Assembly (NCBI RefSeq): GCF_008630935.1
Contig: NZ_CP043908.1
Span: forward strand, 1-64,000
Direction: 5' to 3'
Source: Thermodesulfobacterium sp. TA1
GTDB taxonomy: Bacteria > Desulfobacterota > Thermodesulfobacteria > Thermodesulfobacteriales > Thermodesulfobacteriaceae
Length of the DNA: 64,000 nt
Shown: one piece after another, positions 5,905-7,095 of the stretch
How positions within the stretch are numbered: position 1 is the stretch's first letter
How the letters are laid out: each line of letters starts with the position of its first letter
Notes under the pieces: model-generated
The model's input: only the letters and a program-made list of their open reading frames with translations
Told to the model about the DNA's origin: nothing
Database searches by the model: none
Made by a program: the position numbers and the translations under genes

Positions 5905-7095
5905 ATGAATAGAAGTGATTTGATAGAGAGTTTAAGTTTAAAGTTTGGTGACATAGAAAAGGAAGATTTGAAAACGATAGTTGAACTTTTTTTTGAAACC
6001 CTAAAAGAAGAGCTTAAAAAGGGTAATCGGATAGAGTTTAGAGATTTTGGGGTTTTTTTGCTTAAAAAAAACAAAGGTCTTATCTTTAAGAACCCTAAAA
6101 ATCAGCAGAATTATTATGTTAAAAATAAACTACGAGTGATTTTTAAATTAGGGAAGGAATTTAAGGACAGATTAAACCTTCCTTTTTTGGCTTCTTTAGA
6201 CTTGGGAACTCAAACTTTTAGGCTTTGTTTAGGTAAAAAAGTAAAAAAGCAATTATATTTTTTGGTAAAAAGAAGGGAGAATGTGAGATTAGGAGAAGGG
6301 TTGGTTAACCAAGAAATTTCAGAAGAGTCTTTTATTAGAGGGATAGAAACCTTAAAAAGTTTTAAAGCTTTAATGGATGTATACGAAGTAAAAGCTTATA
6401 GAGCTGTAGGAACGGCTATTTTTAGAAAAGCAAAAAATGCGTCTTCATTTTTAGAAGAGGCTAAGAAAATAGGCATAGATATAGAGGTGGTTTCTCCAGA
6501 AGAGGAGATTTTGTTGTCTTTAAAAGGAGTAATCTATGGATTAAAAGACCAAAATTTGGTTAGAAGAAAATGTTTGATAGTAGATGTGGGTGGTGGGTCT
6601 ACAGAGTTTATGTTGAGTGAAAAAATCACCCCTAAGTGGGTAAAAAGTTTAGAAATAGGGGCGGTTTCATTAAAAGAACTTTTTCAGCTTAGATATCCGG
6701 TAAATTATAGGGTATTTAAGTCTATTATAGATTACCTTTCTGATAAATTAGTTGAGCTTCCTCAAGAAGAGGTAGACCATGTGATTTTTACAGGAGGCAC
6801 TGCCAGTTTGTTGGGAGCTTTAGATTTAAAGCTTAAAATATTTTCTCCTTATGCGTTAAATAGTCATAAAATTTCTAAGGACCGGATAGAAAAAATAATA
6901 AAAAAATTAGCTAACAGTGACCTTGAGAGGATTTCTAAAATGAAAGGGATGGAAAAAGGAAGAGAAGATATAGCCCTTCCAGGTGCACTTATCTGTTTTT
7001 CTGTCTTAGAATATTTTAAGAAAGACTCTCTAATACTAAGTGTTAACGGTATTTTAGAGGGAACTTTACTTTCTTTAATAGAGAGGTATAATTAG
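5905..7095 (+). CDS. IHF/HU-like DNA-binding domain fused to Ppx/GppA phosphatase
   Basis: 396 residues. Residues 1-92 are a complete HU/IHF-family domain: NRSDLIESL start, the helical half, [10 protein letters not shown] and the [28 protein letters not shown] arm and tail in shortened form. Residues 95-396 are a Ppx/GppA exopolyphosphatase/pppGpp phosphatase of the ASKHA fold, with the first phosphate loop [12 protein letters not shown] and the second [10 protein letters not shown], plus FTGGTAS. There is no stop or frameshift between them. ihfB is the gene expected after rpsA-sppA, so the phosphatase seems to have fused to the ancestral IHF-beta. A nucleoid protein tethered to a polyphosphate or (p)ppGpp enzyme is unusual; the function of the fusion is unknown. 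Confidence 0.85.

Follow-up and report, generated by a model that had tools for sequence, protein, structure and literature searches.

An IHF-beta-type domain fused to a Ppx/GppA phosphatase in Thermodesulfobacterium and its order

The window, by which we mean the whole stretch of DNA analysed, covers positions 1 to 64,000 of contig NZ_CP043908.1 of Thermodesulfobacterium sp. TA1, whose genome is a single contig of 1.83 Mb. Here one open frame encodes a DNA-binding domain of the IHF-beta type followed by a phosphatase of the Ppx/GppA family. The frame follows rpsA and sppA and precedes guaB, and both the frames and synteny uphold this arrangement, which the original prediction had given; synteny with unfused relatives also agrees with its statement that this is the position of ihfB. 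Within this order of heat-loving bacteria, 36 genomes contain the full frame without interruption, in 37 sequences since one of them has a second copy. Each part belongs to a known family. Searches of literature from which most subscription papers are missing gave no description of the two in combination and nothing relevant to such a fusion. The features of the locus are as follows.

3275..5011, + strand: rpsA, the upstream neighbour (frame list and synteny)
5021..5893, + strand: sppA, with 11 nt between its end and the start of the fusion
5905..7095, + strand: ihfB-ppx fusion gene, 396 aa, a single open frame from ATG at 5905 to TAG at 7095
5905..6180, + strand: IHF-beta-type HU/IHF domain, residues 1-92 (Pfam PF00216; predicted fold)
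6091..6096, + strand: Asn63-Pro64, at the position of the intercalating proline on the arm tip that binds DNA, invariant in 37/37 fusions
6175..6186, + strand: junction, residues 91-94 (N-L-P-F), a loop in the AlphaFold2 model, with no indel at 78-104
6184..7092, + strand: Ppx/GppA phosphatase, domains I-II only (PF02541; structure matches 3cer_C and 1t6d_A)
6505..6507, + strand: Glu201, counterpart of the catalytic Glu121 of E. coli Ppx (alignment to 1u6z), invariant in 37/37
7130..8599, + strand: guaB (IMP dehydrogenase), 34 nt downstream of the fusion

Promoter-like sites were no commoner than in shuffled sequences.

The Bac_DNA_binding model (PF00216) matched residues 1-91 with an E value of 5.8e-19 and a score of 68.6 bits against a gathering threshold of 22.4, covering positions 1-90 of its 90. 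The NCBIfam scores were higher for IHF-beta (62 bits) than for IHF-alpha (43) and HU (19), all below the curated cut-offs; the IHF-beta equivalog models TIGR00988 and PRK00199 gave 60.7 and 62 bits against cut-offs of 119.95 and 115. By sequence, the nearest solved structures are IHF/Hbb proteins. Modelled alone, this half adopts the HU/IHF fold, with IHF-beta of the IHF-DNA complex (1ihf_B) as the top match (Z 11.0, rmsd 3.5, 94 aligned). The DNA-contact residues do not vary; besides Asn63 and Pro64, Arg46 and Gly49 are invariant in all 37 sequences. The DNA arm also has Phe61 and Arg77, which hardly vary among the fusions and occur in none of the 12 outgroup IHF proteins compared; position 61 is Gly or Ser in others. 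Because these arm changes are specific to the order, the fused IHF may differ from other IHF proteins in DNA specificity.

The phosphatase domain spans residues 95-393. Ppx-GppA (PF02541) matched residues 112-393 (E 1.1e-47; 163.3 bits against a gathering threshold of 27; model positions 5-283 of 285), and the best NCBIfam model was exo_poly_only (residues 95-392, E 3.5e-59). The curated cut-off of the exopolyphosphatase model TIGR03706 was missed, with 200.5 against 307 bits. Since both halves score below the NCBIfam equivalog cut-offs, neither is a canonical member. Fold comparison gave matches to 3cer_C (Z 41.1, rmsd 2.1, 308 aligned) and to Aquifex 1t6d_A (Z 35.1, rmsd 3.0, 300 aligned); by sequence the nearest solved structure is the Aquifex Ppx/GppA. 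The catalytic Glu and Arg and the metal-binding Asp and Glu (E201, R174, D227 and E234) are all present, the roles of the equivalent residues being described in PMC3411833, and these four together with D99, R353 and D355 are invariant in all 37 sequences. The fusion is the sole Ppx/GppA of the genome. To judge by these residues and the predicted folds, each half appears to be functional. With Pfam and NCBIfam matches to both halves and their conservation in relatives, the two-domain reading first made from the sequence stands.

Several observations indicate that the two halves form one polypeptide. In the AlphaFold2 model of the whole chain (pLDDT 94.9, pTM 0.88) the C-terminal helix of the IHF part (84-90) is followed by residues 91-94 and then directly by the first Ppx strand (95-100). 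Indels are absent from junction residues 78-104 in all 37 sequences and numerous in the body of the Ppx part. Most pairs with estimable dS have a low dN/dS in each half and at the junction as well. The 37 uninterrupted sequences rule out a frameshift, a missed stop or an annotation artefact, and full-length copies in 36 genomes are explained neither by chance nor by assembly error. Two proteins could still arise from such a gene through an internal start or proteolysis, which would make the fusion merely apparent. The window does have an in-frame TTG at residue 95, just before the Ppx core, but this codon is present in 2 of the 37 sequences alone, and no start codon near the junction is conserved. 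The commonest site, residue 82, has one in 10/37, and 16/37 lack any start codon between residues 80 and 112. A conserved internal start is thereby ruled out, and a two-protein origin of the products is very unlikely. Conservation, synteny and the lack of a conserved internal start thus bear out the prediction of a single protein: this is a true fused protein encoded by one conserved open frame.

The original prediction had proposed a search of relatives, and this search found the fusion in the 36 genomes of the order mentioned above. Among 60 relatives, matches to residues 1-396 were spread through the same genus, family and order. T. hveragerdense DSM 12571 carries the fusion with 81% identity. 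Outside the order no fusion was detected in 297 genomes of the phylum by protein search, where matches were to the Ppx part or to separate IHF proteins, nor in 395 genomes of the phylum by profile search. In the latter, the 17 matches from the order begin at model position 1, whereas all the other matches listed begin at position 71 or later and comprise the phosphatase part alone. One wider contig scan returned T. hveragerdense, with the fused form, and an Aquificota MAG with a standalone Ppx, and nothing else. A few genomes of the order apparently lack the fusion. G003 has no clear guaB either, which suggests that the locus is probably unassembled there; G015 is 64% complete, a contig end cuts the locus in G011, and G038 is partial. 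In the draft genome G021 (L133, G021:C136) the frame is broken within the Ppx half and not at the junction, which is probably an assembly error. The fusion is fixed across the order containing Thermodesulfobacterium. Genome G028, with assembly contamination of about 5%, has two differing copies of the fusion (G028:C16 and G028:C12; L013 and L053), reflecting either a duplication or a mixed bin.

Unfused families of the phylum suggest how the gene arose. The order rpsA-sppA-ihfB-ppx occurs at L097, L098 and L099, and the same string with guaB next at L104, L106 and L045. At these six loci ihfB and ppx are neighbours that, unlike the fusion, are separate genes with stop codons. The distance from the ihfB stop to the ppx ATG is 20 nt in L097 and L098, which belong to one family; at L045 a YrdC/Sua5-like frame (named by eye) lies between the two genes on the opposite strand. 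Among 45 outgroup ppx loci, guaB is directly downstream in 24, sppA upstream in 13 and ihfB upstream in 6. An outgroup family (f22; L044, L102, L108, L111, L115, L117 and L125) has rpsA-sppA-ppx with no ihfB between, a different layout of this locus. The fused Ppx domains form one clade in the tree of Ppx domains (support 95/81), as do the fused IHF domains in theirs (99/96). The fusion is best explained by one joining within the rpsA-sppA-ihfB-ppx-guaB string, and a single event in the ancestor of the order would be the simplest account.

The genomic context bears on the substrate of the phosphatase half. For the polyphosphate kinases, a search of 41 genomes of the order gave no PPK1 and no match to PPK2 that exceeded the cut-off; control genomes do match in both searches. 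Weak PPK2 matches in four genomes fell below the cut-off and covered fewer than 50 of 229 positions. The order thus retains a Ppx/GppA despite having neither PPK1 nor a PPK2 over the cut-off in these 41 genomes. RelA/SpoT is present in 39/41 genomes and in 30/30 of high quality, so that pppGpp is probably available as a substrate. Taken together, the absence of PPK and the presence of RelA/SpoT favour pppGpp or another nucleotide over polyphosphate, although a polyphosphate synthase of another kind is conceivable in the order. The known enzymes point both ways: residues 18-310 of V. cholerae GppA, comprising domains I-II, suffice for conversion of pppGpp to ppGpp in vivo (PMC7552824), while pppGpp was cut by neither of two Ppx/GppA homologues from M. 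tuberculosis that were assayed (PMC3411833).

A partner for the IHF half is encoded elsewhere. All 30 genomes of high quality in the order have IHF-alpha. In the present genome an IHF-alpha-like gene lies separately, between pheT-like and MerR-like frames, in agreement with the pheT-ihfA gene order. In the IHF-alpha sequences recovered from the genus Thermodesulfobacterium (G000:C1:197118-197408 = L061; L062-L083) the arm tip is Asn-Leu or Asn-Phe and not Asn-Pro. Combined with the Asn-Pro of the fused IHF-beta in 37/37, this would possibly give an asymmetric IHF heterodimer.

In view of the above, we propose a nucleoid-held IHF dimer that carries a phosphatase for pppGpp, or for another nucleotide or short chain, a reading with about an even chance of being correct in which the substrate is predicted and the coupling inferred. 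The IHF half would pair either with the separately encoded IHF-alpha, giving a heterodimer that may bear one phosphatase, or with itself. The paired IHF half would bind and bend DNA, and the phosphatase would thereby be carried on the nucleoid. Less surely, the phosphatase half would be active and take the terminal phosphate off pppGpp, as GppA does, or off a similar nucleotide or a short phosphate chain. Turnover or sensing of the alarmone would then occur at the DNA, and through the short junction of fixed length it might alter DNA binding by IHF. The conserved arrangement suggests that nucleoid structure and a phosphate signal may be physically coupled in this order, and the fusion may plausibly tie the packing of DNA to stringent control. 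The more specific version would be an alarmone-responsive architectural protein of the chromosome that contains its own pppGpp phosphatase and bends DNA differently when the ligand is bound or hydrolysed. This is a tentative extension that we consider more doubtful than the nucleoid-held phosphatase itself.

Other functions can be considered. The phosphatase half could be an exopolyphosphatase that breaks down polyphosphate at the nucleoid; there the polymer is able to decorate nucleoid proteins and DNA or to compete for them. This is in agreement with the exopolyphosphatase model as best NCBIfam match and with Rv0496, a short Ppx of M. tuberculosis that is likewise without the C-terminal domains and acts on short-chain polyphosphate (PMC3411833). 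However, the lack of PPK1, and of PPK2 over the cut-off, in the 41 genomes argues against it, as does the position of ppx beside guaB in unfused relatives, and we regard it as unlikely. Somewhat less likely again is that the Ppx half serves mainly as a ligand sensor, with catalysis secondary, in which bound ppGpp, pppGpp or another nucleotide switches dimerization or bending by IHF. A fixed and very short junction and the confident whole-chain model would be consistent with such a switch, and one of the fold matches, 6pc1, is a family member solved with ppGpp; yet the catalytic residues, needless in a pure sensor, are all invariant. The fusion might also be a harmless operon accident, a stop codon lost between neighbours whose products keep their old jobs, the link having no function. 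Adjacency of ihfB and ppx before the fusion and the sufficiency of a single origin fit this explanation. It is nevertheless improbable, the least so favoured of these three, since the fusion persists wherever the locus is assembled in the order, with no re-splitting and no indel at the junction, and since the DNA arm has acquired order-specific invariant residues.

If the proposal of an alarmone-responsive nucleoid protein is true, it would tie the shape of the nucleoid directly to the stringent response. As the fusion to this enzyme of the stringent-response/polyphosphate family is fixed and its halves and junction are constrained, a connection between alarmone state and chromosome organisation can be tested directly on one purified protein from a genus of which some members are in culture. 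The locus also illustrates gene fusion cleanly, for related families still keep the two genes as unfused neighbours.

An HU/IHF protein is normally a small one, made up of the DNA-binding fold alone. The fusion resembles IHF-beta (HimD/Hip) in fold, in the Asn-Pro arm tip, in the RIExRxFG core and in gene position after rpsA-sppA, but differs in its score below the equivalog cut-off, in the fixed Phe61 and Arg77 and in a C-terminus that runs on into an enzyme. With E. coli Ppx and GppA it has the catalytic core in common, including the counterpart of Glu121; the two E. coli enzymes, each about 500 aa long, have C-terminal domains III-IV that are missing from the fusion, and have no IHF domain. 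Aquifex aeolicus Ppx/GppA (1t6c/1t6d/2j4r), about 30% identical to the enzyme half along some 300 aa, also has domains I-II only and the same catalytic residues, but unlike the fusion stands alone, without a DNA-binding domain.
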